A stretch of DNA of 64,000 nucleotides from Isoetes taiwanensis (taxonomy: Eukaryota; Streptophyta; Lycopodiopsida; Isoetales; Isoetaceae): NCBI GenBank assembly GCA_021234155.1, contig JAJEKV010000064.1, positions 6,014,001 through 6,078,000 on the forward strand. Reading direction: 5' to 3'. A model generated the notes under the pieces. The model saw only the letters and a program-made list of their open reading frames with translations. It had not been told where the DNA came from and made no database searches. The translations under genes were made by a program, and so were the position numbers. How positions within the stretch are numbered: position 1 is the first letter of the stretch; the number at the start of each line of letters is the position of its first letter. Positions 8,159 to 37,606 of the stretch are shown here, in pieces.

Positions 8159-8187
8159 TTATATATATATATATATAAATATATATT

Positions 8188-9168
8188 CACTGTCCCCTGA
8201 CTTGCATAATACTCCCTTGTCAGCTACACAAATTTGCAGCCTCACTTGTTGGTCTTGAGGCCCTTGGTTGGCAAGAAGGTAATTACCCTCTTGTATGCTT
8301 AAGTCCACACCCTATTGTTCTTAAGACCCTGGTGTGACGTAAAGGAAATTACCCTCTTTTAGGCCTAAAGGCACACTTTACTAAGATAATATTAACATTC
8401 TAAATACATACATTCTTCTACTAATCTAGTGTTATGACTGACCAATAGAATTCCACTTTTCATAAAAAACATTTGACAATTTGTTCTCACGAACAAGTTT
8501 GACATCTTTTAGAGTTGTCCTCTTGTTAACTTTGGATCACCATAGTAATTAGTGACCAACTTGTCTATATTACCATTGTGCATCATTAAGTATATCAAGA
8601 CTGTATGGGCCTTACAGCTTAACTTGAGGACATGGACTTGGAAAAGCTGGATATGAGGCACGCAAACTAAAGATGGTCATAACGCACCTTGATTGGCTAA
8701 ATTTTGATATTTTTACTTTATTAAAAGGAGACTCTGCATAGGCTAACACCCTCTAATCATGATACGTTCACCCACCAACTTTAACGTTTACTAGGAATAA
8801 TAGGGCCCTAATGGTTGACCACATATACTCTTTAAAGTATGGTTGTACAAGAAATGGACTATTAGGGTATATCACATTTATTGCCTGTTCACTGCCTGCG
8901 CGCAAATGATGCTCGAGCATAACCTAAGGAGCCGAAGTTAGGCTTTGCTCAAGAGCCTGAATACGGCCGACGGCGCCTATGCAGAAAGATTTGGTGAAAA
9001 AAGATGCACAGGACGATTTGGAGCAGAGGACCATACGCTTGGAATGACCAGTGGCTGGACTCTTCCAATAAAATTTCAAATCAAATCAAATCGAATATGA
9101 TCCTTTGCATAGACTGGTATTTTCTTCCTTCACTCTTGTTTGCTCTGTTCTCAGCTTTGCATGCGCCC
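8188..9168 (+). promoter_or_regulatory. 5' non-coding region of unit A with conserved hairpin
   Basis: About 1 kb without open frames is conserved nearly base for base in all four units (15836, 23459 and 31100 onward). An imperfect inverted repeat at about 8912-8956 pairs CTCGAGCATAACCTAA with TTAGGCTTTGCTCAAGAG around a GGAGCCGAAG loop. It is followed by a GC-rich patch (CGGCCGACGGCGCC) 200 bp before ORF1. It could be promoter or 5' UTR; no transcription start can be placed. Confidence 0.5.
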
Positions 9169-9170
9169 GA

Positions 9171-9796
9171 GAATGATCTGATTGGAGTTAAATAACGAAG
9201 AGGAGAATATTCTTAATGAATTCCTCAAGCTGTGCATTGACAGCCGCCCTGATTCTAGTTGTCCTTATATCAGAACAAAATGTGCTTGCTCTAAACCTAA
9301 TGAGCATTTGCAACAGAGGCTGCATATTTCGGCAGCTGATAAAGAGGAAGTTGATTTCATATTCTCCGGTAGAGCTGGAGTTCTAGCTGAATATTGTTTC
9401 TGTGAGGGTTGTTTGGAGTGTTTCTGGAAGGTTGATAACATGGGCAGGACAAAGGGCGCCCCTAATAGCAGTGCCACTAGAAATGACATTATCAAAGTTC
9501 TTACTAAGGCTGCATTGCTCAATGAGCATGGAAGGGCTGATGGCACTCCAACGAAGGATTTAGCAAAGAATACTTTGATGGATATGATTACCAAAGCTGG
9601 CCTCAACTCTGAACTGCAGAATGAGGTAAACAAAAGAACACAAAGTAGCGGTCTGCAACAAACACAGCTACGAGTTGGCAACTATGGAAAAAACAATAGC
9701 ACAAATGATGACATAGTGGAGCTAGCTGAGGACACACCTAAATGCATGTTCATGCAAGACCAAGACTCGGATGAGGAGGATCTGCCACTAAATCAG
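9171..9796 (+). pseudogene. ORF1, unit A
   Basis: Same protein as the better preserved copy in unit B. The region around the start (CAGAATGATACAG in units B and C) is altered here, so the first ATG is out of frame; the frame is open from 9182. Motifs present: the Cys cluster CPYIRTKCACSKP, a second Cys group CFCEGCLECF, a helix pair (NDIIKVLTKAALL and NTLMDMITKAGL) and an acidic stretch DQDSDEEDLPLNQ ending at an AG|GT donor. The altered start falls on CAG sites and may be a sequencing error. Confidence 0.6.
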
Positions 9797-10023
9797 GTCC
9801 CATTGCATGGTTATACTAGAAAAGACATGATGATTATTGATTTTGCTTGTTTGGTGTCTACAAAAGTTGATTTTGCTCTTATGAAAATTTCTCTATTCTT
9901 TGCTTAGCTAAAACTAATATGCTAATGGGCAAAGGGCGATAAGCCAAGGATCCCTACAGCTTACCTGACGCCCCTTACCCTGTTACCTTGATTAAAGCTA
10001 ATTGTGGTCATGTTTGGGTGCAG
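9797..10023 (+). other. spliceosomal intron after ORF1 exon 1, unit A
   Basis: The donor AATCAG|GTCCCA and acceptor GGGTGCAG|GTAACC are conserved in units A, B and D. The diverged sister element at 38279-38677 has the intron at the same place and phase (after codon LNQ, before VTGV). Read-through also leaves an open frame for about 110 nt. Confidence 0.6.
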
Positions 10024-11695
10024 GTAACCGGGGTTCCTTTTCCCATCTCTGTGTATCTGTTTCAGCTATCAAGTTTGCATGGATGAAGTTGCTTTCTCGA
10101 ACTTCTCTTAGTGCAGTTCTTGTTATGTTTTCCCTTAAAACATTTGTGTTTACGACATATGGTATGCTTCTTTATCTCCTCTATTTTGAGACAACGTAAT
10201 ACAACGATATAACTTGAATGAGATAAGTAAGTTTGCTGCCCTGTCTGCTAAGCAGCATAAACTATTTGAATGCTTGTCTATTCTATGTTTTTCATTTGAG
10301 ACTCATTACTATAATATGGAAATATGTTTTTTTTTTTTTTTTTTAAAAAAGGGAGGAGGTACTGCTATCTAATGCATGCATTGTTCAAACTTGATGCTGT
10401 CTGTATATGATGAGACTGCATGGATACTTTAGATAAACATAAACACGCGGGAACATTCTACAGCAGAGCAGCCTGATAGAATAAAGTCTTTGATGCATAT
10501 TTATCGTACATAATGGCATAGGCCTGAATAATGCATAGTTTACCGCTGATATATGGTGAAATGCAGGCATTAGATTGCAGTATTTATGTTCTTAAAGTAG
10601 CTCAAATAATCAGGGGAATGGCTTGCTTATATTCACCAAGCACATAGGCATGCAAATGTTTTATATTGCTTAAAAAAAATAACATATGGTGTTCACTACA
10701 CATTTCTTGGATCTAGGACTAGTTTGTACAACAGGTCGAGCAATGCATACAGTCCTGCACGTTATTTGATAACAGCATGCATGAGCATGTTTATGTTACT
10801 CGAAATTTCTGATATTTCTCTTTGTTCACTGCATACATTTACATGCAAGTATTCCTCGTGGCATGCAGAAATACCATGTTGTATTCCCTTAGCATTTCTT
10901 GAATTTTTGTCTTGGATGCACAATATAAAGGGGTAATGCACACAGTCCTGCATCATATGTGACTACTGGTATATGGATATAACCTCTCTGATTAAGGCAT
11001 ACCTTAGTAGTAGACCCAAACTATCGTCTTTAATCTCTTGCTGCATATCTTGGTTTTAGTACTACAAATGCCTACTGTTCTACCATTAATGCACCATACA
11101 TGAACAGTCTTAGCTAGACAGACCTTTCCTTCATGCCCCTTCTAATGACCTTTCATGATTTACTAGTATTTAAACCAGTATAGGATACTCCAAATCCTAG
11201 AAAAGTAACTACCTCTTTGGGCATAGGTATTTCATAAGGTTGTTGAATAAATCCCCCCGGTTATGCTACTTAAGTACAGAACACGATTAAAACCTAAACC
11301 TGAATCTTAAGAATATGCTACTGTTATCTCTCTAAGCTGCTAGCTAGTCTTACTGCTAACACCCCTAAGTTTATTATGACTTTGTAGTTTTCACTTCATA
11401 TGGTTCCTAATGGCTTCCCATGATTAAATGGGTCTGATAAGCTCTGATCTGGAAAGGTCACTGCATAGATAGCTATATATTCCTAGACTTCGGATTGCTA
11501 GTATAACTAGCATGAGTCTTAGGAACCATCATACGGAACAAACCTTTTGAGACCCTTATTTCCTGCTCCATGCATGATTCGATGCCCACATTAATCTTTT
11601 TACCTGGCACAATCTTTTTACTTGGCTATATTGGTTTACATGTTCTAAATAGCATAGCATGTTTTCTAATTCAGTGTCACTTTACTGAAATTTAG
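10024..11695. other. region between ORF1 and ORF2, unit A
   Basis: After the acceptor the frame reads VTGVPFPISVYLFQLSSLHG and then stops. The remaining roughly 1.6 kb has a T/A tract (10327-10350, variable length between units) and no convincing gene. It ends at the acceptor TGAAATTTAG|GAC of ORF2. It may be a long intron or an intergenic spacer. The same holds for 17671-19332, 25071-26961 and 32939-34673. Confidence 0.5.
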
Positions 11696-13317
11696 GACTA
11701 TACCAATGAAGGCTCACAGCTGCATATTCTACCTGATGTTAGGAGTGCTCCAAATATTGAATGGATACCAGAGCTTAAAGATATGGGCTATCTTTTGCAT
11801 CGGAGCAATCCCCTAATAAAGTCGCAGCGACTCATCTTGGGATGCATCAAAAGGTCTGAAATTCACAACCATTTCATTCTACACGAGAACAATCTGAAAG
11901 AAGGTGATCATTCCGCCATCATGTTTCTTGGAACCAATAACATGCTAGCTCTTGCAGCCAAGTTTAATGAAACTGGTTATGATCCTCGGCTTTCTTTCGC
12001 CCTCATTCTTCGATTCCTATGCACGCTTTGCACGAAGCCATTTATGAGGCCACAATGGCTGACTCTACCAATGTGCAGAAATACATCAAAGGGCTTACAG
12101 CTCTTGAAAAGGCCAATGGGGTAAAAGTTACCAACCCCCCACTGAATAAAGCTGCTATTAAATCACAGGCAAATTGTGCACCTACCAATATCTTCAGCAC
12201 ATGTCTTTTTGACATCAACACTCTTTCTGAAACTGATAAAAATGCTCTGCTTGGCATCAGCCCCACCAGCAGTAATATCTCTAACACTGCCAATACTGAG
12301 ATAGCTGACAATGCAGATGAGTATAGACTGAGACAACTTAATTTAGCTAATTGTAGCTGCTACCCTATCCTTTCCCCTCGTCTTGTGGAATCATTTGGCC
12401 AAAGACATGACCAAGCTCTCTGGAAATCCAAAAATCTCGGCATTATTGCACCCCTTAGCCTTGAATCCTGGATTAAGCTTGCTGGCATTACCCCTGCAGA
12501 GATTGAACAAGCTTACAATGATGCAGATAATCTGATTCGAAGGGTTGATAGACTGGAAATTGAGCTGCCATTCAGCACTAGCTTCTTTGGTAAAGAATGC
12601 AACAAAGGGGATGGATTCATCATGGGCGGAAAGGATCACATGGCCAAGACGTAAGAAAAAAAGAAATGAATTTTACCTTAAAAAATCTGGAGGACACACT
12701 TTGCCATATATCAAATGCAACTGTCAAAAATACACAAGAGGGAAGAAAGATTGCACGGATGGCGGCATCAAATGGATTGATCACGCACTCACGGTATCTT
12801 ATGAACCACACGGACACCATCCGCCAGCTCATTCATCTACAAGATGGTTTGCCCTATTCTCGCTCTATTCGAGGGCTCCACCAATGCGTCCGCCATTATA
12901 GCATACATTGGTTTCCTAAAAGTGCGGAAAATGCTGATTGATATGACCCGATATGATATGCCGAGGACCAATCTGCTGACCTTAACCTTGAATTTGGAAA
13001 CACCAAGCTTCTTCGATGTGCTTGAAAAGACCATACGCCCAATGAAATTTCTGGTAGGGAGATCTGCCACTAGCCGCACTGATAGTTCTTCAAACAAAAG
13101 AAAACAAATCATCATTGAGGATGAGCACTCTGATATAATACTTCCACCTTCAGTTCTACAAAAACCCATACCTGCAAGCACTCCCAGCAGCAGCAGTGTT
13201 GTCATTCTGGATGGGCAGACTAGCAACAACTCTAATGCTGAAAATTCGGTTAATAAGAGCAACCCCAGCAGCTTTGCACGAAATCCTGAAATCCAAGGAA
13301 GCAAGATCATCTATTAA
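11696..13317 (+). pseudogene. ORF2, unit A (frame-broken)
   Basis: Homologous to the ORF2 of units B, C and D. Here the frame breaks near 11790, 11985-12030, 12650 and 12700-13020, so only blocks such as 12019-12654 and 12844-13317 are open. Nearly every break lies where the other units have CTG or CAG. For example, 11981-12020 is altered at each CTG of the unit D segment 34961-35000. The C-terminal block keeps the Ser/Asn-rich tail (SSSSVVILDGQTSNNSN) and ends at TAA 13315-13317. Probably one intact frame in the organism; this is inference. Confidence 0.65.
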
Positions 13318-13322
13318 CATAG

Positions 13323-13570
13323 GTACTACTATTTCTTACTATTTACTGGTCTCATTTTGCATTTATCGCTACTTTTTTACTTTTGTATAATATTACATGG
13401 TTGCATTATGGTTTGCATGCTTAAATTATTTTTTATCTTCTCTGCTATATACCTGCATTTCTTGTTTGTATTCCATATGGGATGTTCCCAAAATATATGG
13501 CCCATTCTATGGGTACAGGGATAAAACCCTAACTTTTTCTTTAATAATGATACATTCGTACTCACTACAG
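13323..13570 (+). other. putative intron between ORF2 and reverse transcriptase, unit A
   Basis: A GT donor (AG|GTACTACT) stands 5 nt after the ORF2 stop. A pyrimidine-rich stretch leads to CTCACTACAG|AATGAGGG, where protein-like sequence (NEGVKKWRILNKNEEGRWRL) begins. The open frame upstream encodes only an unlikely hydrophobic peptide from ATG 13397. Equivalents end at 21202 and 28832. The ORF2 stop before the donor leaves open whether ORF2 and the RT are joined. Confidence 0.45.
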
Positions 13571-15697
13571 AATGAGGGGGTAAAAAAGTGGAGAATACTC
13601 AATAAAAATGAAGAAGGCCGATGGCGCCTCATGACAGTTAAGGAGTCACAAAATGTAAAGTATGTGCATTTCACATTCTTCTCCAAAGCCATAGATGGCA
13701 TCAGATTTGATAAGACATTCAGGGAAGTTCTTGAAAATATGCTACCTGTTGTGGGTACTGAAATGATGGATAACACTAAGTTTGGCTGGAGCTATCTAAA
13801 AAACTTGAAAAGTTTGTTGTACAAACCAAGACTTGTCTTTGCAGAAGACACCACACTGAAATGCCCTTGTACCAATCCTAGTCTAAGAAGGTTTGTAGAT
13901 CCCAGTATAGGGCATATCAGAACAACCGAGTTGAGCATTGTACACTGTGCAGCCTTGAGAAATTGGCTGAAAATTGGACTGAATCATATTCCTGACTTTC
14001 CATTCACTGTGGAAATGTTTGTGAAGGAGATGAGTAAGTCTATAGAACAGTTTTTCTCAGTTCATCAATTCACCATCAGGGATATACCTGCAGCAAGAGT
14101 TCAGCATACCAAAAGCTGCCTTCTTAATGAAACCATAAAACTAGCCAGAGAATACATCAAGGATAATCAGGTATGCAAGAAATTTATGATCAAAGATGAT
14201 GCCGTACACAGGAATATTATATGGCTCAATGAGAACATCTATGTTGCTGGCATTGACAAAGCTAGTAACAATCCTTCTTTATATGTCCAAGGACATATCA
14301 GAGAAGAAGCCTATAAAAGACTAGAAAGCTCTGATTTTAGCAAGATTGATATGAACAGTGATGATCTAAAGTTCAAAATCGCCCAAGAGATACAGATCTT
14401 TATTGGGTTCTGGCCACCCAATACAAGCACCCTGCCCTATCTTCTAGGTATCTACAAGGCCCATAAAAAAGAATACCGATGGATCACAAATGCCCATGAG
14501 ACTATTTTTTCTCTTCCAGCAAAAATCATAGCAGCTGGGCTTAACTGTATCCTAGAAATCTGGCCAAGGATTTGTCAAGAAAAATGTGCTCGGTATAATT
14601 TCTTTCATAAAGAAAAGGTCAAGGCCTCCTGGGTTATTGGATCGATATATGATATAGCTTGCAATCTTCCAAGCAATATACACGAAGTTTTCGTAGCAGA
14701 CATTACCAAATGCTACGAAAACATACCTATTGATGGAGATTCAGGAATTTGTTCCACCATGCAGAAGGTATTTCAGCTAGCATGGTACAGCCAAAAGCAG
14801 TTGAATAAAAACTTTAACATGTGGTACAAGACTGGCTATAAAGGTGAAGCTGAAGTGAAATGGTCACATACTAAACCTCCCAGCAACCAATGGACGCTAA
14901 TGGATCAACAGATGTTTACAGAATTGAATGCATGGTTGCTTAACAATTGCTTTCTGCAGATGGGCAGCTCTATCTGGAAACAAATTAGAGGAATTGCTAT
15001 GGGTTTTGCATGTAGCCCAGGTTGGTGCAACCTTTATTTATCATGGTTTGAACTCACCTTCATCTTGAATCTACTTAAAACAAACCAGAGAGAAATTGCT
15101 CTTACTTTCAACAATATGCATAGATACATGGATGACTTGTTAGGAATTAACAAAGCAGGAACATAACGAGATATATCTTGACCGGAAAACCAAGTGATGA
15201 CAACTGAATTACTGCAGTTATATGACCTAAAAGTGTTGAAAGTCAAAGATGAAACAGAATACTGGGGTATTGAAGGTTTACTCAAATTCAAGGGAAGAAA
15301 GGTTAATTTTCTGAACATGACCATCGAAGTCATTAATCCGGAGCATGGTACTTTTGAAACTTACGATATACGATAAAAGGCTCAAATTGCCCTTTGCTGC
15401 AGCCGTGTTCATTGATGCTTCAAGTCGCAGACCTTATCATCAGGCCTGCAATGTAATTTTGTCACAGATTATGCCTTACCTATATGTTCATAAGCAATCC
15501 GGTGAAAGCTGCACAAGACATTAGGGAGCTTATACAAGTCTTTATTCTCAAAGGCTTCTTCCACCAAGATGTTTGGAATCTTGTCATCACGGACACTCAA
15601 TACTGCATTCACTATCCCGGACTCTTATTTGACATCAAGGATATGACCAGGCAATTTGCTAACTTACAGGTATTTATTATACTGTATTTTTCTTTAA
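13571..15697 (+). pseudogene. Penelope-like reverse transcriptase, unit A
   Basis: Longest RT frame of the array (open from 13397 to 15166, 589 codons from ATG 13397), then frame-broken to the stop at 15697. Motifs in order, numbered from that ATG: GIDKASNN at about 285-292 (equivalent of the DKG motif of Penelope-like RTs), LGIYKAHKKEYRW (fingers), VADITKCYENIP with catalytic Asp 435 (motif A), RGIAMGFACSPGWCNLYL from 531 (motif B), RYMDDLLGIN with Asp 579-580 (motif C). Beyond the break come KVNFLNMTIEV, the thumb-like SRRPYHQACN region and PYLYVH. These match the Penelope-like RT plan rather than LINE, LTR or telomerase RTs. No GIY-YIG endonuclease follows. The break near 15155-15180 coincides with altered CAG/CTG sites. 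Full product about 700 residues. Confidence 0.88.
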
Positions 15698-15712
15698 AAC
15701 TTAGTTGGCAGG

Positions 15713-15800
15713 GAGGGCCCCTATAGCAGTATAGGGACCCTCTCAGCCCTTATACTGACTAACATGGGACCACCCTGCCTTCCGGTAGGAGGTAGGCCAA
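15713..15800 (+). promoter_or_regulatory. structured 3' end of unit A (hairpin plus kissing arm)
   Basis: Stem GAGGG-C-CCCTATA (15713-15725) pairs with TATAGGG-A-CCCTC (15730-15742) around the loop GCAG. The loop-side CAGTA is complementary to TACTG at 15753-15757, 10 nt after the stem. A second, imperfect hairpin (CCTGCCTTCC / GGAGGTAGG, about 15773-15797) precedes the (TA)n tract. Near-identical sequence ends unit B at 23335-23420; a noisier copy ends unit C. A likely role in 3' end formation or RT template recognition is inference. Confidence 0.6.
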
Positions 15801-16816
15801 ATTTTTATATATATATACATATATAAATATATATTCACTGTCCCCTGACTTGCATAATACTCCCTTGTCAGCTACACAAATTTGCAGCCTCACTTGTTGG
15901 TCTTGAGGCCCTTGGTTGGCAAGAAGGTAATTACCCTCTTGTATGCTTAAGTCCACACCCTATTGTTCTTAAGACCCTGGTGTGACGTAAAGGAAATTAC
16001 CCTCTTTTAGGCCTAAAGGCACACTTTACTAAGATAATATTAACATTCTAAATACATACATTCTTCTACTAATCTAGTGTTATGACTGACCAATAGAATT
16101 CCACTTTTCATAAAAAACATTTGACAATTTGTTCTCACGAACAAGTTTGACATCTTTAGAGTTGTCCTCTTGTTAACTTTGGATCACCATAGTAATTAGT
16201 GACCAACTTGTCTATATTACCATTGTGCATCATTAAGTATATCAAGACCGTATGGGCCTTACAAAAAACTTGAGGACATGGACTTGGAAAAGCTGGATAT
16301 GAGGCACGCAAACTAAAGATGGTCATAACGCACCTTGATTGGCTAAATTTTGATATTTTTACTTTATTAAAAGGAGACTCTGCATAGGCTAACACCCTCT
16401 AATCATGATACGCTCACCCACCAACTTTAACGCTTTACTAGGAATAATAGGGCCCTAATGGTTGACCACATATACTCTTTAAAGTATGGTTGTACAAGAA
16501 ATGGACTATTAGGGTATATCACATTTATTGCCTGTTCACTGCCTGCGCGCAAATGATGCTCGAGCATAACCTAAGGAGCCGAAGTTAGGCTTTGCTCAAG
16601 AGCCTGAATACGGCCGACGGCGCCTATGCAGAAAGATTTGGTGAAAAAAGATGCACGGACGATTTGGAGCAGAGGACCATACGCTTGGAATGACCAGTGG
16701 CTGGACTCTTCCAATAAAATTTCAAATCAAATCAAATCGAATATGATCCTTTGCATAGACTGGTATTTTCTTCCTTCACTCTTGTTTGCTCTGTTCTCAG
16801 CTTTGCATGCGCCAGA

Positions 16817-17443
16817 ATGATACAGTTGGAGTTAAATAACGAAGAGGAGAATATTCTTAATGAATTCCTCAAGCTGTGCATTGACAGCCGCCCTGATTCT
16901 AGTTGTCCTTATATCAGAACAAAATGTGCTTGCTCTAAACCTAATGAGCATTTGCAACAGAGGCTGCATATTTCGGCAGCTGATAAAGAGGAAGTTGATT
17001 TCATATTCTCCGGTAGAGCTGGAGTTCTAGCTGAATATTGTTTCTGTGAGGGTTGTTTGGAGTGTTTCTGGAAGGTTGATAACATGGGCAGGACAAAGGG
17101 CGCCCCTAATAGCAGTGCCACTAGAAATGACATTATCAAAGTTCTTACTAAGGCTGCATTGCTCAATGAGCATGGAAGGGCTGATGGCACTCCAACGAAG
17201 GATTTAGCAAAGAATACTTTGATGGATATGATTACCAAAGCTGGCCTCAACTCGAAAGGCTGCGGGAATGAGGTAAACAAAAGAACACAAAGTAGCGGTC
17301 TGCAACAAACACAGCTACGAGTTGGCAACTATGGAAAAAACAATAGCACAAATGATGACATAGTGGAGCTAGCTGAGGACACACCTAAATGCATGTTCAT
17401 GCAAGACCAAGACTCGGATGAGGAGGATCTGCCACTAAATCAG
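16817..17443 (+). CDS. ORF1 exon 1, unit B (Cys-containing, helix-pair protein)
   Basis: Open from ATG 16817 to the donor AATCAG|GT at 17444, giving 209 codons; the frame upstream is also open but lacks a nearer ATG. Order: acidic N-terminus (LELNNEEENILNEF), Cys cluster CPYIRTKCACSKP (about residues 30-45), second Cys group CFCEGCLECF, basic GRTKGAP linker, two short helices NDIIKVLTKAALL and NTLMDMITKAGL separated by about 25 residues (reminiscent of SAP/HeH-type DNA-binding helix pairs), polar stretch, acidic end DQDSDEEDLPLNQ. The sister element's ORF1 keeps the helix pair and the PLNQ end. A nucleic-acid-binding partner of the RT is plausible but unproven. Exon 2 would begin at 17671 (VTGVPFPIS) and stops after about 20 codons. 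Confidence 0.6.
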
Positions 17444-17670
17444 GTCCCATTGCATGGTTATACTAGAAAAGACATGATGATTATTGATTTTGCTTGTTTG
17501 GTGTCTACAAAAGTTGATTTTGCTCTTATGAAAATTTCTCTATTCTTTGCTTAGCTAAAACTAATATGCTAATGGGCAAAGGGCGATAAGCCAAGGATCC
17601 CTACAGCTTACCTGACGCCCCTTACCCTGTTACCTTGATTAAAGCTAATTGTGGTCATGTTTGGGTGCAG
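17444..17670 (+). other. spliceosomal intron after ORF1 exon 1, unit B
   Basis: Same donor and acceptor as in unit A (AATCAG|GTCCCA, GGGTGCAG|GTAACC), 227 bp, phase 0. Confidence 0.6.
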
Positions 17671-20949: not shown

Positions 20950-21202
20950 CATAGGTACTACTATTTCTTACTATTTACTGGTCTCATTTTGCATTTATCG
21001 CTACTTTTTTACTTTTGTATAATATTACATGGTTGCATTATGGTTTGCATGCTTAAATTCTTTTTTATCTTCTCTGCTATATACCTGCATTTCTTGTTTG
21101 TATTCCATATGGGATGTTCCCAAAATATATGGCCCATTCTATGGGTACAGGGATAAAACCCTAACTTTTTCTTTAATAATGATACATTCGTACTCACTAC
21201 AG

Positions 21203-23332: not shown

Positions 23333-23424
23333 GGAGGGCCCCTATAGCAGTATAGGGACCCTCTCAGCCCTTATACTGACTAACATGGGACCACCCTGCC
23401 TTCCGGTAGGAGGTAGGCCAAATT
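23333..23424 (+). promoter_or_regulatory. structured 3' end of unit B
   Basis: Repeats the unit A hairpin (GGGCCCCTATA / TATAGGGACCC), the downstream TATACTG kissing arm and the second hairpin CCTGCCTTCC / GGAGGTAGG, immediately before a (TA)n tract. Confidence 0.6.
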
Positions 23425-23455
<31 letters not shown>

Positions 23456-24442: not shown

Positions 24443-25070
24443 ATGATACAGTTGGAGTTAAATAACGAAGAGGAGAATATTCTTAATGAATTCCTCAAGC
24501 TGTGCATTGACAGCCGCCCTGATTCTAGTTGTCCTTATATCAGAACAAAATGTGCTTGCTCTAAACCTAATGAGCATTTGCAAATGAGGGTCGCATATTT
24601 CTAAAATGGTGATAAAGAGGAAGTTGATTTCATATTCTCCCAGAGAGCTGGAGTTCTAGCTGAATATTGTTTCGTGGAGGGTTGTTTGGAGTGTTTCGAA
24701 GGTTGATAACATGGGCAGGGACAAAGGGCTTCCTAATAGCAAAGGCCACTAGAAATGACATTATCAAAGTTCTTACTAAGGCTGCATTGCTCAATGAGCA
24801 TGGAAGGGCTGATGGCACTTCAACGAAGGATTTAGCAAAGAATACTTTGATGGATATGATTACCAAAGCTGGCCTCAACTCTGAACTGCAGAATGAGGTA
24901 AACAAAAGAACACAAAGTAGCGGTGCGCAACAAACACAAATTACGAAGTTGGCAACTATGGAAAAAACAATAGCACAAATGATGACATAGTGGAGCTAGC
25001 TGAGGACACACCTAAATGCATGTTCATGCAAGACCAAGACTCGGATGAGGAGGATCTGCCACTAAATCAG
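24443..25070 (+). pseudogene. ORF1, unit C (frame-broken)
   Basis: ATG at 24443 opens the same acidic N-terminus and CPYIRTKCACSKP cluster but meets a stop at about 24602. Frame resumes at 24667-24990 (helix pair NDIIKVLTKAALL, NTLMDMITKAGL) and, in another frame, at 24990-25070 (acidic end DSDEEDLPLNQ). The breaks correspond to CAG/CTG positions of unit B (CAACAGAGGCTGCAT there, CAAATGAGGGTCGCAT here). Confidence 0.6.
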
Positions 25071-26961: not shown

Positions 26962-28579
26962 GACTATACCAATGAAGGCTCACAGCTGCATATTCTACCT
27001 GATGTTAGGAGTGCTCCAAATATTGAATGGATACCAGAGCTTAAAGATATGGGCTATGCTGCTACTGGAGCAATCCCCCCTAATAAAGCTGTGCAGCTCA
27101 TCTTGGGATGCATCAAAAGGTCTGAAATTCACAACCATTTCATTCTACACGAGAACAATCTGAAAGAAGGTGATCATTCCGCCATCATGTTTCTTGGAAC
27201 CAATAACATGCTAGCTCTTGCAGCCAAGTTTAATGAAACTGGTTATGATCCTCTGGCCTGTACTGCCCTCATTACTGATTCCTATGCACGCCTGCCTGAA
27301 GCCATTTATGAGGCCACAATGGCTGACTCTACCAATGTGCAGAAATACATCAAAGGGCTTCTGACTCTTGAAAAGGCCAATGGGGTAAAAGTTACCAACC
27401 CCCCACTGAATAAAGCTGCTATTAAATCACAGGCAAATTGTGCACCTACCAATATCTTCAGCACATGTCTTTTTGACATCAACACTCTTTCTGAAACTGA
27501 TAAAAATGCTCTGCTTGGCATCAGCCCCACCAAAGATATAATATCTCTAACACCGCCAATAATGAGATAGCTGACAATGCAGATGAGTATAGACTGAGAC
27601 AACTTAATTTAGCTAATTGTAGCTGCTACCCTATCCTTTCCCCTCGTCTTGTGGAATCATTTGGCCAAAGACATGACCAAGCTCTCTGGAAATCCAAAAA
27701 TCTCGGCATTATTGCACCCCTTAGCCTTGAATCCTGGATTAAGCTTGCGGCATTACCCCCCGCAGAGATTGAACAAGCTTACAATGATGCGTATAACCCG
27801 ATTCAAGGGTTGATAGACTGGAAATTGAGCTGCCATTCAGCACTAGCTTCTTTGGTAAAGAATGCAACAAAGGGGATGGATTCATCATGGGCCAGAAGGA
27901 TCACATGGCCAAGACAGAAGAAAAAAGAAATGAATTTTACCTTAAAAAAATCTGGAGGACACACTGCCCATATATCAAATGCAACTGTCAAAAATACACA
28001 AGAGGGAAGAAAGATTGCCTGGATGGCGGCATCAAATGGATTGATCACGCACTCTGGTATCTTATGAACCACCTGGACACCATCTGGCCAGCTCATTCAT
28101 CTACAGTAAGGTTTGCCCTATTCTGCTCTATTCTGAGGGCTCCACCAATGCGTACCGCCATTATAGCATACATTGGTTTCCTAAAAGTGCGGAAAATGCT
28201 GATTGATATGACCGACAGATATGCCGAGGACCAATCTGCTGACCTTAACCTTGAATTTGGAAACACCAAGCTTACTGATGTGCTTGAAAAGAGTATACGC
28301 CCAATGAAATTTCTGGTAGGGAGATCTGCCACTAGCCGCACTGATAGTTCTTCAAACAAAAGAAAACAAATCATCATTGAGGATGAGCACTCTGATATAA
28401 TACTTCCACCTTCAGTCTACAAAAAACCCATACCTGCAAGCACTCCCAGCAGCAGCAGTGTTGTCATTCTGGATGGGCAGACTAGCAACAACTCTAATGC
28501 TGAAAATTCGGTTAATAAGAGCAACCCCAGCAGCTTTGCACGAAATCCTGAAATCCAAGGAAGCAAGATCATCTATTAA
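26962..28579 (+). pseudogene. ORF2, unit C (two frame breaks)
   Basis: From the acceptor TTTAG|GAC the frame reads through DYTNEGSQLHILPDVRSAPN and is open to about 27568. It changes frame near 27530-27560 and again at 27750-27800, then is open from 27887 to TAA 28577-28579. Same Cys cluster, basic segment and Ser/Asn tail as unit B. With both breaks at altered CAG/CTG sites, an intact product of about 540 residues is likely in the organism (inference). Confidence 0.65.
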
Positions 28580-28832
28580 CATAGGTACTACTATTTCTTA
28601 CTATTTACTGGTCTCATTTTGCATTTATCGCTACTTTTTTACTTTTGTATAATATTACATGGTTGCATTATGGTTTGCATGCTTAAATTCTTTTTTATCT
28701 TCTCTGCTATATACCTGCATTTCTTGTTTGTATTCCATATGGGATGTTCCCAAAATATATGGCCCATTCTATGGGTACAGGGATAAAACCCTAACTTTTT
28801 CTTTAATAATGATACATTCGTACTCACTACAG

Positions 28833-30941
28833 AATGAGGGGGTAAAAAAGTGGAGAATACTCAATAAAAATGAAGAAGGCCGATGGCGCCTCATGACAGT
28901 TAAGGAGTCACAAAATGTAAAGTATGTGCATTTCACATTCTTCTCCAAAGCCATAGATGGCATCAGATTTGATAAGACATTCAGGGAAGTTCTTGAAAAT
29001 ATGCTACCTGTTGTGGGTACTGAAATGATGGATAACACTAAGTTTGGCTGGAGCTATCTAAAAAACTTGAAAAGTTTGTTGTACAAACCAAGACTTGTCT
29101 TTGCTTTGAAGACACCACACTTTGAAATGCCCTTGTACCAATCCTAGTCTAAGAAGGTTTGTAGATCCCAAAGATAGGGCATATCGGAACAACCGAAGTT
29201 GAGCATTGTACAATCGTCGACCTTGAGAAATTGGCTGAAAATTGGATCAAATCATATTCTGACTTTCCATTCACTGTGGAAATGTTTGTGAAGGAGATGA
29301 GTAAGTCTATAGAACAGTTTTTCTCAGTTCATCAATTCACCATCAGGGATATACCTGCAGCAAGAGTTCAGCATACCAAAAGCTGCCTTCTTAATGAAAC
29401 CATAAAACTAGCCAGAGAATACATCAAGGATAATCAGGTATGCAAGAAATTTATGATCAAAGATGATGCCGTACACAGGAATATTATATGGCTCAATGAG
29501 AACATCTATGTTGCTGGCATTGACAAAGCTAGTAACAATCCTTCTTTTATATGTCCAGCACATATCAGAGAAGAAGCCTATAAAAGACTAGAAAGCTCTG
29601 ATTTTAGCAAGATTGATATGAACAGTGATGATCTAAAGTTCAAAATCGCCCAAGAGATACAGATCTTTATTGGGTTCTGGCCACCCAATACAAGCACCCT
29701 GCCCTATCTTCTAGGTATCTACAAGGCCCATAAAAAAGAATACCGATGGATCACAAATGCCCATGAGACTATTTTTTCTCTTCCAGCAAAAATCATAGCG
29801 GTGGGCTTAATCAGATCCTAGAAATCTGGCCAAGGATTTGTCAAGAAAAATGTGCTCGGTATAATTTCTTTCATAAAGAAAAGGTCAAGGCCTCCTGGGT
29901 TATTGGATCGATATATGATATAGCTTGCAATCTTCCAAGCAATATACACGAAGTTTTCGTAGCAGACATTACCAAATGCTACGAAAACATACCTATTGAT
30001 GGAGATTCAGGAATTTGTTCCACCATGCAGAAGGTATTTCAGCTAGCATGGTACAGCCAAAAGCAGTTGAATAAAAACTTTAACATGTGGTACAAGACTG
30101 GCTATAAAGGTGAAGCTGAAGTGAAATGGTCACATACTAAACCTCCCAGCAACCAATGGACGCTAATGGATCAACAGATGTTTACAGAATTGAATGCATG
30201 GTTGCTTAACAATTGCTTTCTGCAGATGGGCAGCTCTATCTGGAAACAAATTAGAGGAATTGCTATGGGTTTTGCATGTAGCCCAGGTTGGTGCAACCTT
30301 TATTTATCATGGTTTGAACTCACCTTCATCTTGAATCTACTTAAAACAAACCAGAGAGAAATTGCTCTTACTTTCAACAATATGCATAGATACATGGATG
30401 ACTTGTTAGGAATTAACAGCAGGAACATACGGAGATATCTTGGACTGGAAAACCAAGTGATGACAACTGAATTACTGCAGTTATATGACCTAAAAGTGTT
30501 GAAAGTCAAAGATGAAACAGAATACTGGGGTATTGAAGGTTTACTCAAATTCAAGGGAAGAAAGGTTAATTTTCTGAACATGACCATCGAAGTCATTAAT
30601 CCGGAGCATGGTACTTTTGAAACTTACAGATACGATAAAAGGCTCAAATTGCCCTTTGCTTTGCAGCCGGTTCATTGATGCTTCAAGTGCGGACCTTATC
30701 ATCGGGCCCGCAATGTAATTTTGTCACGATTATGCCTTACCTATATGTTCATAGCAATCCCAAGGTGAAAGCTGCACAAGACATTAGGGAGCTTATACAA
30801 GTCTTTATTCTCAAAGGCTTCTTCCACCAAGATGTTTGGAATACTGTCATACGGACACTCAATACAGACCACTATCCTGGACTCTTATTTGACATCAAGG
30901 ATATGACAGCTCAGCTGCTAACTTACTGGTATTTATTATAA
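28833..30941 (+). pseudogene. Penelope-like reverse transcriptase, unit C (frame-broken)
   Basis: Same RT. Open from the acceptor to 29147, where GCAGAAGAC of unit A reads GCTTTGAAGAC; open again 29231-29821 (DKA-type motif and fingers) and 30025-30678 (motif B, motif C with Asp codons at 30397-30402, NFLNMTIEV). The last block 30675-30941 holds PYLYVHSNP and a slightly earlier stop. Motif A itself (ADITKCYENIP) is intact in sequence at about 29964-30000 in yet another frame. The number of breaks is the highest of the array. Confidence 0.83.
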
Positions 30942-32083
30942 TTTATATTTTCTTTAAAACTTAGTTGGCGGGGGGGGCCCTATAGCAATATAGGGACCCT
31001 CTCACCCCTTATCTTGACTAACATGGGACCACCCCGCGCCTTCCTAGGTGGGAGGTAGGCCAAATTTTATATATATATATATATATATAAATATATATTC
31101 ACTGTCCCCCGACTTGCATAATACTCCTTGTCATTCTACACAAATTTGCAGCCTCACTTGTTGGTCTTGAGGCCCTTGGTTGGCAAGAAGGTAATTACCC
31201 TCTTGTATGCTTAAGTCCACACCCTATTGTTCTTAAGACCCTGGTGTGACGTAAAGGAAATTACCCTCTTTTAGGCCTAAAGGCACACTTTACTAAGATA
31301 ATATTAACATTCTAAATACATACATTCTTCTACTAATCTAGTGTTATGACTGACCAATAGAATTCCACTTTTCATAAAAAACATTTGACAATTTGTTCTC
31401 ACGAACAAGTTTGACATCTTTTAGAGTTGTCCTCTTGTTAACTTTGGATCACCATAGTAATTAGTGACCAACTTGTCTATATTACCATTGTGCATCATTA
31501 AGTATATCAAGACTGTATGGGCCTTACAGCTTAACTTGAGGACATGGACTTGGAAAAGCTGGATATGAGGCACGCAAACTAAAGATGGTCATAACGCACC
31601 TTGATTGGCTAAATTTTGATATTTTTACTTTATTAAAAGGAGACTCTGCATAGGCTAACACCCTCTAATCATGATACGTTCACCCACCAACTTTAACGTT
31701 TACTAGGAATAATAGGGCCCTAATGGTTGACCACATATACTCTTTAAAGTATGGTTGTACAAGAAATGGACTATTAGGGTATATCACATTTATTGCCTGT
31801 TCACTGCCTGCGCGCAAATGATGCTCGAGCATAACCTAAGGAGCCGAAGTTAGGCTTTGCTCAAGAGCTGAATACGGCCGACGGCGCCTATGCAGAAAGA
31901 TTTGGTGAAAAAAGATGCACAGGACGATTTGGAGCAGAGGACCATACGCTTGGAATGACCGGTTGGCTGGACTCTTCCAATAAAATTTCAAATCAAATCA
32001 AATCGAATATGATCCTTTGCATAGGCCGGTATTTTCTTCCTTCACTCTTGTTTGCTCTGTTCTCGGCTTTGCATGCGCCCGAA

Positions 32084-32710
32084 ATGATCTGATTGGAGTT
32101 AAATAACGAAGAGGAGAATATTCTTAATGAATTCCTCAAAATTTGTGCATTGGCCAAAATACGATTCTAGTTGTCCTTATATCGAACAAAATGTGCTTGC
32201 TCTAAACCTAATGAGCATTTACCTTGAGGCCGTCGATATTTCATATTTGGTGATAAAGAGGAAGTTGATTTCATATTCTCCTAGAGAGCTGGAGTTCTAG
32301 CTGAATATTGTTTTACGTGAGGGTTGTTTGGAGTGTTTACGGAAGGTTGATAACATGGGCAGGACAAAGGGCTTCCTAATAGCAGTGCCACTAGAAATGA
32401 CATTATCAAAGTTCTTACTAAGGCTGCATTGCTCAATGAGCATGGAAGGGCCGATGGCACTCCAACGAAGGATTTAGCAAAGAATACTTTGATGGATATG
32501 ATTACCAAAGCTGGCCTCAACTCGAACTGCGGAATGAGGTAAACAAAAGAACACAAAGTAGCGGTGCGCAACAAACCACGACTACGAGTTGGCAACTATG
32601 GAAAAAACAATAGCACAAATGATGACATAGTGGAGCTAGCTGAGGACACACCTAAATGCATGTTCATGCAAGACCAAGACTCGGATGAGGAGGATCTGCC
32701 ACTAAATCAG
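32084..32710 (+). pseudogene. ORF1, unit D (frame-broken)
   Basis: Same protein as unit B with many breaks between 32084 and 32600. The Cys clusters are garbled (32130-32330), the helix pair is readable at about 32395-32520, and the acidic PLNQ end at 32600-32710 precedes the conserved GT donor at 32711. Intron 32711-32938. Confidence 0.55.
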
Positions 32711-34583
32711 GTCCCATTGCATGGTTATACTAGAAAAGACATGATGATTATTGATTTTGCTTGTTTGGTGTCTACAAAAGTTGATTTTGCTCTTATGAAA
32801 ATTTCTCTATTCTTTGCTTAGCTAAAACTAATATGCTAATGGGCAAAGGGCGATAAGCCAAGGATCCCTACTGACTTACTCCGGCCCCCTTACCCTGTTA
32901 CCTTGATTAAAGCTAATTGTGGTCATGTTTGGGTGCAGGTAACCGGGGTTCCTTTTCCCATCTCTGTGTATCTGTTTCAGCTATCAAGTTTGCATGGATG
33001 AAGTTGCTGCTCTGAACTTCTCTTAATCTGGTTACTGTTATGTTTTCCCTTAAAACATTTGTGTTTACGACATATGGTATGCTTCTTTATCTCCTCTATT
33101 TTGAGACAACGTAATACAACGATATAACTTGAATGAGATAAGTAAGTTTGTTTGCCACAATGCGCTAAGCGAAGATAAACTATTTGAATGCTTGTCTATT
33201 CTATGTTTTTCATTTGAGACTCATTACTATAATATGGAAATATGTTTTTTTTTAAAAAAGGGAGGAGGTACTGCTATCTAATGCATGCATTGTTCAAACT
33301 TGATGCTGTCTGTATATGATGAGACTGCATGGATACTTTAGATAAACATAAACACGCGGGAACATTCTACAGCAGAGCAGCCTGATAGAATAAAGTCTTT
33401 GATGCATATTTATCGTACATAATGGCATAGGCCTGAATAATGCATAGTTTACCGCTGATATATGGTGAAATGCAGGCATTAGATTGCAGTATTTATGTTC
33501 TTAAAGTAGCTCAAATAATCAGGGGAATGGCTTGCTTATATTCACCAAGCACATAGGCATGCAAATGTTTTATATTGCTTAAAAAAAATAACATATGGTG
33601 TTCACTACACATTTCTTGGATCTAGGACTAGTTTGTACAACAGGTCGAGCAATGCATCTGATCCCTGACGTTATTTGATAACAGCATGCATGAGCATGTT
33701 TATGTTACTCGAAATTTCTGATATTTCTCTTTGTTCACTGCATACATTTACATGCAAGTATTCCTCGTGGCATGCAGAAATACCATGTTGTATTCCCTTA
33801 GCATTTCTTGAATTTTTGTCTTGGATGCACAATATAAAGGGGTAATGCACACAGTCCTGCATCATATGTGACTACTTGGTATATGGATATAACCTCTCCG
33901 ATTAAGGCATACCTTAGTAGTAGACCCAAACTATCGATTTTTAATCTCTTGCTTGCATATCTTGGTTTTAGTACTACAAATGCCTCTTGTTCTACCATTA
34001 ATGCACCATACATGAACAGGTCTTAGCTAGACGGACCTTTCCTTCATGCCCCTTCTAATGACCTTTCATGATTTACTAGTATTTAAACCAGTATAGGATA
34101 CTCCAAATCCTAGAAAAGTAACTACCTCTTTGGGCATAGGTATTTCATAAGGTTGTTGAATAAATCTGCCCGGTTCTGCTACTTAAGTACAGAACACGAT
34201 TAAAACCTAAACCTGAATCTTAAGAATATGCTACTGTTATCTCTCTAAGCTGCTAGCTAGTCTTACTGCTAACACCCCTAAGTTTATTATGACTTTGTAG
34301 TTTTCACTTCATATGGTTCCTAATGGCTTCCCATGATTAAATGGGTCTGATAAGCTCTGATCTGGAAAGGTCACTGCATAGATAGCTATATATTCCTAGA
34401 CTTCGGATTGCTAGTATAACTAGCATGAGTCTTAGGAACCATCATACGGAACAAACCTTTTGAGACCCTTATTTCCTGCTCCATGCATGATTCGATGCCC
34501 ACATTAATCTTTTTACCTGGCACAATCTTTTTACTTGGCTATATTGGTTTACATGTTCTAAATAGCATAGCATGTTTTCTAAT

Positions 34584-34648
34584 GACATAGCATAGCATAG
34601 CATAGCATAGCCTAGTGGTGTGACATTAAAATACTCTCTCTCTCTAAT
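34584..34648. repeat. 65-bp insertion with CATAG repeats, flanked by CTAAT duplication
   Basis: Absent from units A, B and C, which read TTTTCTAATTCAGTG here. The insertion starts with GACATAGCATAGCATAG (five CATAG) and ends in a short CT run. CTAAT occurs on both sides (34579-34583 and 34644-34648), which looks like a 5-bp target duplication or a filler repair event. Confidence 0.8.
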
Positions 34649-34673
34649 TCAGTGTCACTTTACTGAAATTTAG

Positions 34674-36767
34674 GACTATACCAATGAAGGCTCACAGCTG
34701 CATATTCTACCTGATGTTAGGAGTGCTCCAAATATTGAATGGATACCAGAGCTTAAAGATATGGGCTATGCTGCTACTGGAGCAATCCCCCCTAATAAAG
34801 CTGTGCAGCTCATCTTGGGATGCATCAAAAGGTCTGAAATTCACAACCATTTCATTCTACACGAGAACAATCTGAAAGAAGGTGATCATTCCGCCATCAT
34901 GTTTCTTGGAACCAATAACATGCTAGCTCTTGCAGCCAAGTTTAATGAAACTGGTTATGATCCTCTGGCCTGTACTGCCCTCATTACTGATTCCTATGCA
35001 CGCCTGCCTGAAGCCATTTATGAGGCCACAATGGCTGACTCTACCAATGTGCAGAAATACATCAAAGGGCTTACAGCTCTTGAAAAGGCCAATGGGGTAA
35101 AAGTTACCAACCCCCCACTGAATAAAGCTGCTATTAAATCACAGGCAAATTGTGCACCTACCAATATCTTCAGCACATGTCTTTTTGACATCAACACTCT
35201 TTCTGAAACTGATAAAAATGCTCTGCTTGGCATCAGCCCCACCAGCAGTAATATCTCTAACACTGCCAATACTGAGATAGCTGACAATGCAGATGAGTAT
35301 AGACTGAGACAACTTAATTTAGCTAATTGTAGCTGCTACCCTATCCTTTCCCCTCGTCTTGTGGAATCATTTGGCCAAAGACATGACCAAGCTCTCTGGA
35401 AATCCAAAAATCTCGGCATTATTGCACCCCTTAGCCTTGAATCCTGGATTAAGCTTGCTGGCATTACCCCTGCAGAGATTGAACAAGCTTACAATGATGC
35501 AGATAATCTGATTCGAAGGGTTGATAGACTGGAAATTGAGCTGCCATTCAGCACTAGCTTCTTTGGTAAAGAATGCAACAAAGGGGATGGATTCATCATG
35601 GGCCAGAAGGATCACATGGCCAAGACAGAAGAAAAAAGAAATGAATTTTACCTTAAAAAAATCTGGAGGACACACTGCCCATATATCAAATGCAACTGTC
35701 AAAAATACACAAGAGGGAAGAAAGATTGCCTGGATGGCGGCATCAAATGGATTGATCACGCACTCTGGTATCTTATGAACCACCTGGACACCATCTGGCC
35801 AGCTCATTCATCTACAGATGGGGAGAAAGGGATATGCCAGGTTATCGAGCAAGTTTGCAAACTAGCTTGGACCAATCAGCTGAAAAAGGATAAGAAATAT
35901 AATATGTGGTACACCCGAAATTCTAACGGATCTTTTGAAGTAACCTGGAAAAAGGTAAATCCCAAGGGCAAAAAGTGGACATTGTTAGGGTTGGATGGAT
36001 TTTGCAAAATGAATAAATGGTTGCTTAAGTGCTGTTTTCTTAAAATGGGTAGCTTCATTTGGAGACAGGTCAAGGGAATTCCTATGGGTTTCCCTTGTAG
36101 CCCGTCATGGTGCAATCTGTATTTGGCCTTTTACGAACTGAATTTTATTACTGATCTCTGCAAGGAGGGTAAACTCCAGGAAGCAAACTCATTTAGATAC
36201 TGCAGCAGATACATAGATGATCTGATAGGGATTAATTGCTTCTACATCAGGGAGTACCTCAACATTGTCGGTAATAATCTTAATGATAATAGCAAGTGCA
36301 TTTATGACCTGAATATCCTTAAAATAAAAGATGAAACTGAGTATTGGACAGTTTTGGGAGTTGGGGGCAGCAGTGGAAGAAGAGTAAATTTTCTCAACAT
36401 GACCATTGAGATATTGAATGTGGGGCTCGGAACATATTGCACATATAGGTATGATAAGCGGGACAAGCTTCCTTTTAAAGCATCTAGGTTCGTGCACGCC
36501 AATAGTTGCCGACCTTATAATATGGCAATCAACGTGCTGATCTCACAAGTTTTACCATATCTATATGTACACAGTAACCCCTTTCTAGCAGCTGAAGACT
36601 TGCATAATCTGGTCAAGGATTTCTGTACCAAGGGCTTTAAAGCCAAGGATGTATGGAAAACACTATACAAGGCTTTAAAGGATAATGATTTTCCTGGACT
36701 GCGATACGATATATGCACAATGGTCAAAGAGCTACAAAAATTCAGGTACGAAATCTCGCATACTTAA
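34674..36767 (+). CDS. fused ORF2 N-terminus plus sister-family RT C-terminus
   Basis: Open from the acceptor at 34674 (ATG at 34761, 668 codons) to TAA at 36765-36767. Residues 1-351 are an unbroken ORF2 N-terminal part (helical repeats, Cys cluster THCPYIKCNCQKY, WIDHALWYL). From residue 352 the protein is a diverged RT that starts DGEKGICQVIEQVCKLAW, directly after motif A. It has KGIPMGFPCSPSWCNLYL (motif B, from 438), RYIDDLIGIN (motif C, Asp 486-487), RVNFLNMTIEI, HANSCRPYN and PYLYVHSNP. The fingers and the catalytic motif A Asp are missing, so it should not polymerise. The uninterrupted frame across the junction is notable. It may be a real recombination product, a deletion, or an assembly join. 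Confidence 0.75.
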   Translation, partial: DYTNEGSQLHILPDVRSAPNIEWIPELKDMGYAATGAIPPNKAVQLILGCIKRSEIHNHFILHENNLKEGDHSAIMFLGTNNMLALAAKFNETGYDPLACTALITDSYARLPEAIYEATMADSTNVQKYIKGLTALEKANGVKVTNPPLNKAAIKSQANCAPTNIFSTCLFDINTLSETDKNALLGISPTSSNISNTANTEIADNADEYRLRQLNLANCSCYPILSPRLVESFGQRHDQALWKSKNLGIIAPLSLESWIKLAGITPAEIEQAYNDADNLIRRVDRLEIELPFSTSFFGKECNKGDGFIMGQKDHMAKTEEKRNEFYLKKIWRTHCPYIKCNCQKYTRGKKDCLDGGIKWIDHALWYLMNHLDTIWPAHSSTDGEKGICQVIEQVCKLAWTNQLKKDKKYNMWYTRNSNGSFEVTWKKVNPKGKKWTLLGLDGFCKMNKWLLKCCFLKMGSFIWRQVKGIPMGFPCSPSWCNLYLAFYELNFITDLCKEGKLQEANSFRYCSRYIDDLIGINCFYIREYLNIVGNNLNDNSKCIYDLNILKIKDETEYWTVLGVGGSSGRRVNFLNMTIEILNVGLGTYCTYRYDKRDKLPFKASRFVHANSCRPYNMAINVLISQVLPYLYVHSNPFLAAEDLHNLVKDFCTKGFKAKDVWKTLYKALKDNDFPGLRYDICTMVKELQKFRYEISHT

Positions 36768-36819
36768 TGGATGTTTAAGTAGGGTTCTAGGTGTAACTTT
36801 CTACTTATACAGGTGGAGA

Positions 36820-36905
36820 GGTGGGTCCCTATGTCATATAGGGACCCACCGTTCCCTTGTATGACATAATTAGGGACCTTCCTTTCCTCCCGGGAGGAGG
36901 TAGGC
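36820..36905 (+). promoter_or_regulatory. structured 3' end of the sister element
   Basis: A perfect 13-bp stem GGTGGGTCCCTAT (36820-36832) pairs with ATAGGGACCCACC (36838-36850) around the loop GTCAT. The loop is complementary to ATGAC at 36861-36865, exactly 10 nt after the stem. A palindromic second hairpin CCTCCCGGGAGG and GGAGGTAGGC follow, then (TA)n. The architecture is that of the unit A and B 3' ends with changed bases. Confidence 0.65.
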
Positions 36906-37606
36906 AAATTATATATATATATATACATATATATACATATATATCCAATAGGTTGGTATGTCTAAATGGCTATCATCTGGTAAGGCAGCAGAGCATCAGT
37001 TATATGGCCCCAATAAAAACTCTACTTTGACATATGGTCAGACTGGTGGGCATTATAAAGGTTGTATATCAGGAATAAATGATAAAAACCAAAAAGTATA
37101 ATCTGTCTGAATGGATAGACATTATACAATGAATAGGGTAGTTTGATTGCGCGGAACTAGTTCTGGACTGCACATGAAAGGAATATGTGCTTGGACATTC
37201 TTGAATAAGTCTTAGGGTGTGAACACATGGGGAGTGAACTCCTAGAGAATATAAACACTATAGGGATAACATAACATTTAGTTGTTTGGCTCCATAGGGT
37301 TACTTTTCTTCCTTACTATATTATTGATTAAAATATACTTGGGGTTATTGTAACTTTCATGTTTTCATATGGTAAATCAGATCTGCACATTTAAAGTCAC
37401 ATATAAGCTCTAAATATGGTTAGCAGGGCATACGGTTACAATTAAACTAACCTTGGATGGGTATGATGGTATTGGTAAGATATTATGTACGAAAACGTAG
37501 AATTTACTTAACTCTATGCGGAAGATACGTGTATAGACCAATTAGGGTTCGAATGGGCTAGAAGCTATACACGAAGCAAGGCCGCCGTTTGCAGCAAGTT
37601 ACAGGC

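Follow-up and report, generated by a model that had tools for sequence, protein, structure and literature searches.

How does a retroelement that lacks an endonuclease find a place to insert, and what starts its cDNA there? The question is raised by a tandem repeat in 64,000 nucleotides of the Isoetes taiwanensis genome (contig JAJEKV010000064.1, positions 6,014,001 to 6,078,000 of the forward strand, or C1072:6014001-6078000; hereafter the window). To our knowledge, the way in which endonuclease-lacking Penelope elements choose sites away from telomeres, which bears on this case, and the relation of telomerase-type template use to retrotransposition are both open questions. Here a proposed template, the RNA fold around it and the insertion ends can all be read in the genome across diverged copies. 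We consider it probable that the repeat is an endonuclease-lacking Penelope-like retroelement with terminal repeats (pLTRs) which would prime cDNA synthesis through a TA template at a fixed site, X, build its own arrays and splice its transcript in alternative ways. If so, a mobile element and TA microsatellites are linked in a plant genome, and a retroelement uses exon skipping to control how much of each of two proteins is made.

A first-pass annotation of the letters alone had described the repeat as tandem, intron-bearing and endowed with several open reading frames (ORFs), in a plant-like genome, and both the description, with the introns read as putative, and the guess at the host were borne out. 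Self-comparison of the window shows head-to-tail units of about 7.63 kb that are about 97% alike (97.1% for 8156-26936 against 15802-34583), in which ORF1, an intron-like gap, ORF2, a reverse transcriptase (RT) and a structured end recur. Where four such units had been counted, three are near-complete and the fourth is chimeric, belonging to family A up to about 35817; from there on, its RT end, 3′ structure and pLTR are those of a diverged family B (the RTs of the two families are 49.5% identical). The right end of the array had been placed at 36910; it lies at about 39648, at a (TA)87 run. Reading frames of the window copies are interrupted at many places, and nanopore errors may be part of the cause. 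The assembly is described, in the portion of its report consulted, as built from nanopore reads polished with short reads, with 1658.30 Mb in 204 scaffolds and 909 unscaffolded contigs (PMC8566536).

The element recurs in this genome far more often than chance would allow. A protein search with its RT across 1,658,258,908 bases in 1110 contigs scored at least 117 related RTs among 3367 first-look candidates, 48 to 100% identical and many of them in open frames of about 700 codons. An ORF1 match lies within 3 kb downstream on the same strand for 44 of these at least 117 RTs (opposite strand, 0) and 2.5-7 kb upstream on the same strand for 38 (opposite strand, 1), with 31 flanked on both sides; because the ORF1 list is incomplete and the query came from family B, these counts are lower bounds. 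Downstream of the RT and a structured segment, S1, there is often a copy of the TA-box, 5′ untranslated region (UTR) and ORF1, which breaks off inside intron 1 in several loci. The copies of this segment align with each other within elements. Together, the pLTR comparisons and the neighbour counts give an element of the form pLTR - ORF2 - RT - S1 - pLTR, in which the pLTR runs from the TA-box through the 5′ UTR and ORF1 to X; since the 3′ end lies at X within intron 1, ORF1 is part of the terminal repeat.

Site X, UAUAUAUU, is nearly constant. It reads TATATATT upstream of 19 of 22 exon 2 starts and TATATAAT in two (L017 and L022; L numbers denote loci fetched from the genome), and is absent in L025; where TATATAT is present it lies 138-288 nt upstream of exon 2. 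Internal copies continue from TATATAT into TC, and terminal copies into (AT)n. By similarity, 36 X-like places were found in the fetched loci, 24 internal (near-identical tandem copies included) and 12 terminal; the script had called 23 internal, 11 terminal in TA and two other, and L055 was relabelled internal by eye. Of the 12 terminal copies, ten reach X and there give way to a TA run; L061 also reaches X, with no TA after it, and L016 stops short of X. Two of the ten lie tail to tail in L024 and have one TA run in common, which leaves nine separate runs. Four further loci (L051, L057, L060 and L062) look terminal by eye and were left out of the count. The runs at right ends vary in length and are often long (about 9 to 175 nt). 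Left ends start with the TA-box, and in four of seven a pure TA run of at least 30 within an A/T-rich stretch lies beyond it.

Some of these ends have neighbours of their own. The tail-to-tail elements of L023 and L024 (C1028, 9866775 on the plus and 9873667 on the minus strand) meet in a TA run of about 84 nt (L024, 1736-1820), and C985 may hold a similar pair (16151210, plus; 16158494, minus). In L056 and L072, element ends adjoin a repeat whose own end resembles CAAGAAAATTAATACGTCCTACGG beside TA, and which is also present in L025 and L011; it is perhaps another TA-inserting element that uses the same kind of site.

X lies inside a conserved, covarying RNA fold, S2. Across 11 sequences, 90.6% of cells pair in the named structure, against 31-40% in slid versions, and two-sided changes affect 13 of 31 pairs; such cells number 31, where shuffles give 10.7 (0 of 500 as high). 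RNAalifold returned the same outer stem and two of the hairpins, and in addition a stem that encloses the TA stretch. All five pairs of this template-enclosing stem can form in 15 of 23 copies, with several pair types, four of five in four copies (L012 twice, L024 and L027) and three of five in three (L018, and L019 twice); L071 was left unscored. Folded singly, S2 has z-scores of -3.3 to -5.5 in four family-A-like sequences and -2.9 to -3.6 in three family-B-like ones, and a genome-wide count of its exact core pattern gave 44 places, as opposed to 2 with the pattern reversed. The putative template is a short stretch between stems that stays unpaired in most of the folds. A complete S2 occurs only where a pLTR meets the element body.

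The second conserved fold, S1, follows the RT. All seven pairs of its outer stem show two-sided changes among 18 distinct sequences; the two helices together have 35 such cells, where shuffles give 11.7. Genome-wide, the terminal motif was counted 324 times and its reversed pattern 7 times. Pairing between its loop and downstream sequence reaches 6 bp in 12 of 16 own pairs and in 12% of 240 crossed ones, in a set that includes related sequences; this is no more than suggestive of a pseudoknot. S1 might act as a ribozyme, bind the RT or serve as a processing signal. Searches of Rfam at E values up to 1 gave no match in window positions 7000-39000, hammerhead ribozymes included, and in six further loci only three microRNA-family matches, at least two of them inside TA runs and none convincing, with no hammerhead. 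S1 had been taken for the 3′ end of the element; the structure is real, and the usual end is X in intron 1. Of 44 GGAGGTAGG places, 38 have TATATATA or ATATATAT within 33 bp; in the window and the long fetched loci taken together, 1.2% of positions lie that close to TATATATA. Most of those 38 that were read by eye run on into the start of the next unit, and terminal copies stop at X instead. Two of the 44 lack S1 (L032 and the minus-strand place of L011).

How the three ORFs are joined bears on how the RT would be made. The conserved core of ORF1 contains two repeats of helical appearance by eye; against Pfam ORF1 gave weak, scattered matches, and neither Pfam nor PDB yielded anything convincing. 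ORF2 is open for 536-548 codons in 11 of 13 loci and matched no known family in Pfam or PDB. In 21 copies exon 1 closes in phase 0 at PLNQ, with GT next; the start of exon 2, by eye, is likewise in phase 0, after AG. A donor for intron 2 was found in 13 of 14 loci, 5-13 nt downstream of the ORF2 stop in all 13, and the putative intron is 204-267 nt long. Exon 3 opens with conserved RT residues directly 3′ of CAG (14 loci; start set by eye). Its first in-frame methionine falls anywhere from residue 1 to 88, with none within the first 120 residues in L028, and no ATG is conserved. Relative to ORF2, eight loci have exon 3 in frame 2, four in frame 1 and one in frame 0; because this frame varies, the RT is not a simple read-through product of ORF2 in most families. 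The first-pass annotation had counted two extra ORFs. ORF1, ORF2 and RT appear better read as phase-0 exons of one spliced gene, with ORF2 and RT as alternative partners: exon 1 would be spliced either to exon 2, giving an ORF1-ORF2 protein, or past it to exon 3. The joining of exons 1 and 3 is the arrangement that would keep frame throughout, and we infer that skipping of the ORF2 exon makes an ORF1-RT protein. Constant joining of exons 2 and 3, with the RT made by reinitiation or frameshifting after the ORF2 stop and no exon skipping, would account for the donor that follows this stop so soon in 13 of 14 loci and for the closeness of the stop to the junction. We think it unlikely, given an exon 3 frame that is not conserved relative to ORF2, the missing ATG at the exon 3 start, and the phase 0 of both the exon 1 end and the exon 3 start.

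The window RT carries GIDKASNNPS, VADITKCYENIPI, GIAMGFACSPGWCN, YMDD, NFLNMT and SCRPYHQACN, just as had been quoted from its translations. Thirteen RT exons align over their full length, and the motifs are largely invariant (the DK motif, GLxxxPD, NIP in motif A, GxxMGFxxSP, YxDD, FLNxT and RPY); we take this set, N-terminal and thumb motifs included, to be that of a Penelope-like RT. A profile comparison with a second RT of the window, of LINE (long interspersed nuclear element) type, gave no match, and no relative was confirmed in viral contigs. The ratio of nonsynonymous to synonymous substitution rates (dN/dS) is 0.06-0.13 for the RT (5 pairs), 0.12-0.19 for the ORF1 core (5 pairs) and 0.05-0.07 for ORF2 (three of four pairs); it thus spans 0.05-0.19 in 13 of 14 pairs, one ORF2 pair being not computable. 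Comparison of the copies thus indicates purifying selection on all three ORFs. Structure models of single window proteins, ORF2 (380 residues) and RT (531 residues), reached a mean predicted local distance difference test score (pLDDT) of 33 and 35 and were discarded.

A GIY-YIG endonuclease had been said to be missing, and Pfam indeed found none in ORF1, ORF2 or RT. Among the matches listed genome-wide, the nearest of at least 121 GIY-YIG domains (PF01541) lies 118,621 bases from any of the at least 117 RTs. Endonuclease-deficient Penelope-like elements have precedents, Coprina among them. The further suggestion of a new endonuclease-lacking plant lineage is curtailed by members already recorded for Selaginella and the conifers Pinus and Picea (Table 1 of PMC9033089, a source consulted in part). 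As possible Penelope RT references from the same genome, eight of the at least 121 GIY-YIG loci were sampled (L073-L080); no Penelope-type RT was seen by eye in their frames of at least 90 residues. In three of these eight (L075, L076 and L080), short GIY-YIG frames lie near ORFs of PIF1/Helitron-type helicases, with domain names assigned by eye; GIY-YIG would be an unusual partner for such elements.

Comparison of diverged copies thus shows a recurring layout, a fixed boundary at X with TA runs at most of the ends examined, and two conserved predicted folds. From these, the following course of events can be proposed. The element reads TA-box, 5′ UTR, ORF1 and the half of S2 that ends at X, then the other half of S2, the ORF2 exon, the RT exon, S1 and a second pLTR. 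A read-through RNA of tandem units would fold, leaving UAUAUAU in S2 exposed as an internal template. On a 3′ end in a genomic TA run, the RT would start cDNA at X by base pairing, as telomerase does, and copy backwards through ORF1, S1 and RT, at times stopping early; the 5′ end would then be joined at the TA-box. Insertion into TA runs, those at the element's own ends included, would build head-to-tail arrays. With a complete S2 only at the junction of pLTR and body, copying the RNA of a single element would produce no more than a lone pLTR, whereas a full copy would call for a tandem source. One lone pLTR (L069), without ORF2 or RT and flanked by two TA runs, fits copying of this kind, and recombination between two pLTRs would give the same. 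A 5′-truncated copy that keeps the RT end, S1 and an ORF1-like frame (L011; one case, by eye, right end unread) fits backward copying from X. In a bolder version, which we hold tentatively and at somewhat less than even chances, the element is a mobile telomerase: its folded RNA would carry the TA template, an endonuclease-free Penelope-type RT would pair it with TA microsatellites, perhaps lengthening them, and then copy the whole element, and the RT would be made only when a cassette exon of 540 codons is skipped.

Several observations weigh against this proposal. In S2, pair types are no more numerous than in shuffles, 388 of 500 of which have at least as many, and the share of cells that pair falls to 73.7% in helix 3. 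The terminal pLTR is without the 3′ half of S2, so that full-length copying would depend on a tandem source RNA. L016 ends about 9 nt before X and, like L061, without TA; L015 ends at the S1 structure; and a long TA run outside the TA-box is missing at three of seven left ends. Of the 20 regions fetched for X, five are among those classed as internal or terminal and 15 lie outside the count. A target-site duplication cannot show in TA runs, which may or may not predate the insertion, and recombination between TA-rich sites or between two pLTRs could be the source of some boundaries. The LNQ of L017 and L022 is not followed by GT, and several ORF1 rows have no in-frame LNQ. Finally, Pfam RVT_1 matches 11 of 13 RTs, with a best E of 3.6e-5, and is below its cut-off in one displayed member, and a PDB profile search with the RT found no RT.

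The ends without TA (L061, L016 and the three left ends) are what would be expected of an ordinary endonuclease-lacking Penelope-like element that inserts at breaks in AT-rich DNA and for which X is an internal initiation site, with no pairing between template and target. Poseidon sets an example: it is reported to initiate internally, at a site without homology to the cut DNA, and to have AT-rich targets (PMC11167929). Such an element is unlikely but has a real chance of being the right description. It leaves without explanation the constancy of X (TATATATT in 19 and TATATAAT in two of the 22 exon 2 starts) and the ten of 12 terminal copies that run straight into TA, when 1.2% of positions lie within 33 bp of TATATATA.

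The TA runs might also be made rather than found, if the RT copied UAUAUAU repeatedly onto any broken end before going on into the element. The variable, often long runs at right ends and a short, stem-bounded template that is mostly unpaired in the folds would suit such synthesis; TA runs also lie outside four of seven left ends, as expected if the TA run is the target, and microsatellites change length on their own, so that we regard this as quite improbable. Least probable of all is that terminal copies at X and lone pLTRs arose by recombination of TA-rich sites (X, TA-box and microsatellites) and the arrays by segmental duplication: X and the TA-box are both TA-rich, L069 ends as recombination between pLTRs would leave it and the window units are 97% alike, but the same ends recur on several contigs, beside unlike flanks, and in families whose RTs are about 50% apart, X sits in a conserved fold, and L011 is 5′-truncated.

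The proposed pairing at X has parallels in known systems. In telomerase (TERT and its RNA), too, a folded RNA supplies a short internal template on which a 3′ end made of repeats is extended; here, in contrast, the template would sit in the mobile RNA itself and the cDNA would continue into the element. Common ancestry of Penelope elements and TERT has been stated (PMC3846280, in the portion consulted). Poseidon of Anolis carolinensis, from the Penelope/Poseidon clade, also has tandem copies with pLTRs, a proposed multi-copy transcript and AT-rich targets, and its reverse transcription starts inside the RNA in a stem-loop; it differs in its GIY-YIG endonuclease, its hammerhead ribozyme and a start site not homologous to the target, and no ORF2 cassette is described for it (PMC11167929). 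Endonuclease-deficient Penelope-like elements, namely Athena and the members from Selaginella, Pinus and Picea, resemble the Isoetes element in having no GIY-YIG; those of rotifers and Selaginella are described as telomere-associated, whereas the Isoetes copies adjoin TA runs (PMC9033089, PMC12477314 and PMC3846280, as far as the consulted parts of these sources go). Penelope families of Adineta vaga share pLTRs, partial tandems and 5′ truncation with ours, their retained introns recall the putative ones here, and a TATA box near an initiator-like (Inr-like) TCACT in the pLTR is a further likeness; GIY-YIG is present there, and in the consulted portion of the paper neither an ORF1 within the pLTR nor a spliced ORF2 is described (PMC3846280).

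With regard to telomeres, the element ends read adjoin TA runs and not telomeric repeats, though no search aimed at telomeric repeats was made; of the listed RTs on 14 contigs above 3 Mb for which a length was supplied, a single one, C1056:27296, has a contig end within 200 kb of it. In the literature searched, listed open-access titles outside which the main papers on endonuclease-lacking and permuted Penelope elements fall, we found no description of a Penelope element from Isoetes, no link between Penelope-like elements and TA microsatellites, no telomerase-like internal template with a cassette exon, and no alternative splicing combined with ORF1 and a pLTR. Our claim of novelty is limited to the literature that could be searched.

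Table 1. Features of the array, in window coordinates.
Feature	Position	Strand	Basis
Whole array: family A units (8156, 15802, 23431), chimeric A/B unit (31072-36904), terminal B pLTR (36905-39648)	8156..39648	+	self-comparison, locus comparison
TA-box, 5′ end of first unit; again at about 15802, 23431, 31072, 36910	8159..8195	+	
ORF1 = exon 1 of unit 2, ends PLNQ then GT, phase 0; other exon ends 9796, 25070, 32710, 38278	16817..17443	+	
S2 RNA fold around site X, unit 1; also about 19040-19163, 26669-26792, 34316-34439	11403..11526	+	
Site X, TATATATT, at which terminal copies end on the 3′ side; proposed template and start for the RT; also 19111, 26740, 34387	11474..11481	+	
ORF2 = exon 2 of unit 2, about 538 codons; stops interrupt this copy, open in relatives	19333..20949	+	
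Putative intron 2 of unit 1; ORF2 stop TAA 13315-13317, donor AG then GTAC, acceptor ACAG then AAT	13323..13570	+	by eye; same pattern in relatives
RT exon (exon 3) of unit 1, phase 0, without start codon at its beginning; frame broken after YMDD here	13571..15697	+	
S1 structured RNA 3′ of RT, ends GGAGGTAGG; also about 23325-23417, 30966-31059, 36812-36904	15704..15796	+	
Family B RT C-terminal half, in-frame junction to family A ORF2, chimeric unit	35820..36767	+	
Family B ORF1 in terminal pLTR; conserved core from about 37931	37562..38278	+	
(TA)87 run at right array end; then another family-B-like 5′ end (TATATATCCAAAAGGATGG)	39649..39823	+	

The window holds other repeats besides this array. 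A second tandem repeat, of about 3.1 kb, occupies 50369-62401, and on the minus strand at 53647-54411 lies an RT that matches RVT_1 at 3.1e-30 and probably belongs to a LINE. Long perfect triplet runs, (CTT)68 and (TTC)33, are found at 46846-47050 and 55220-55319.

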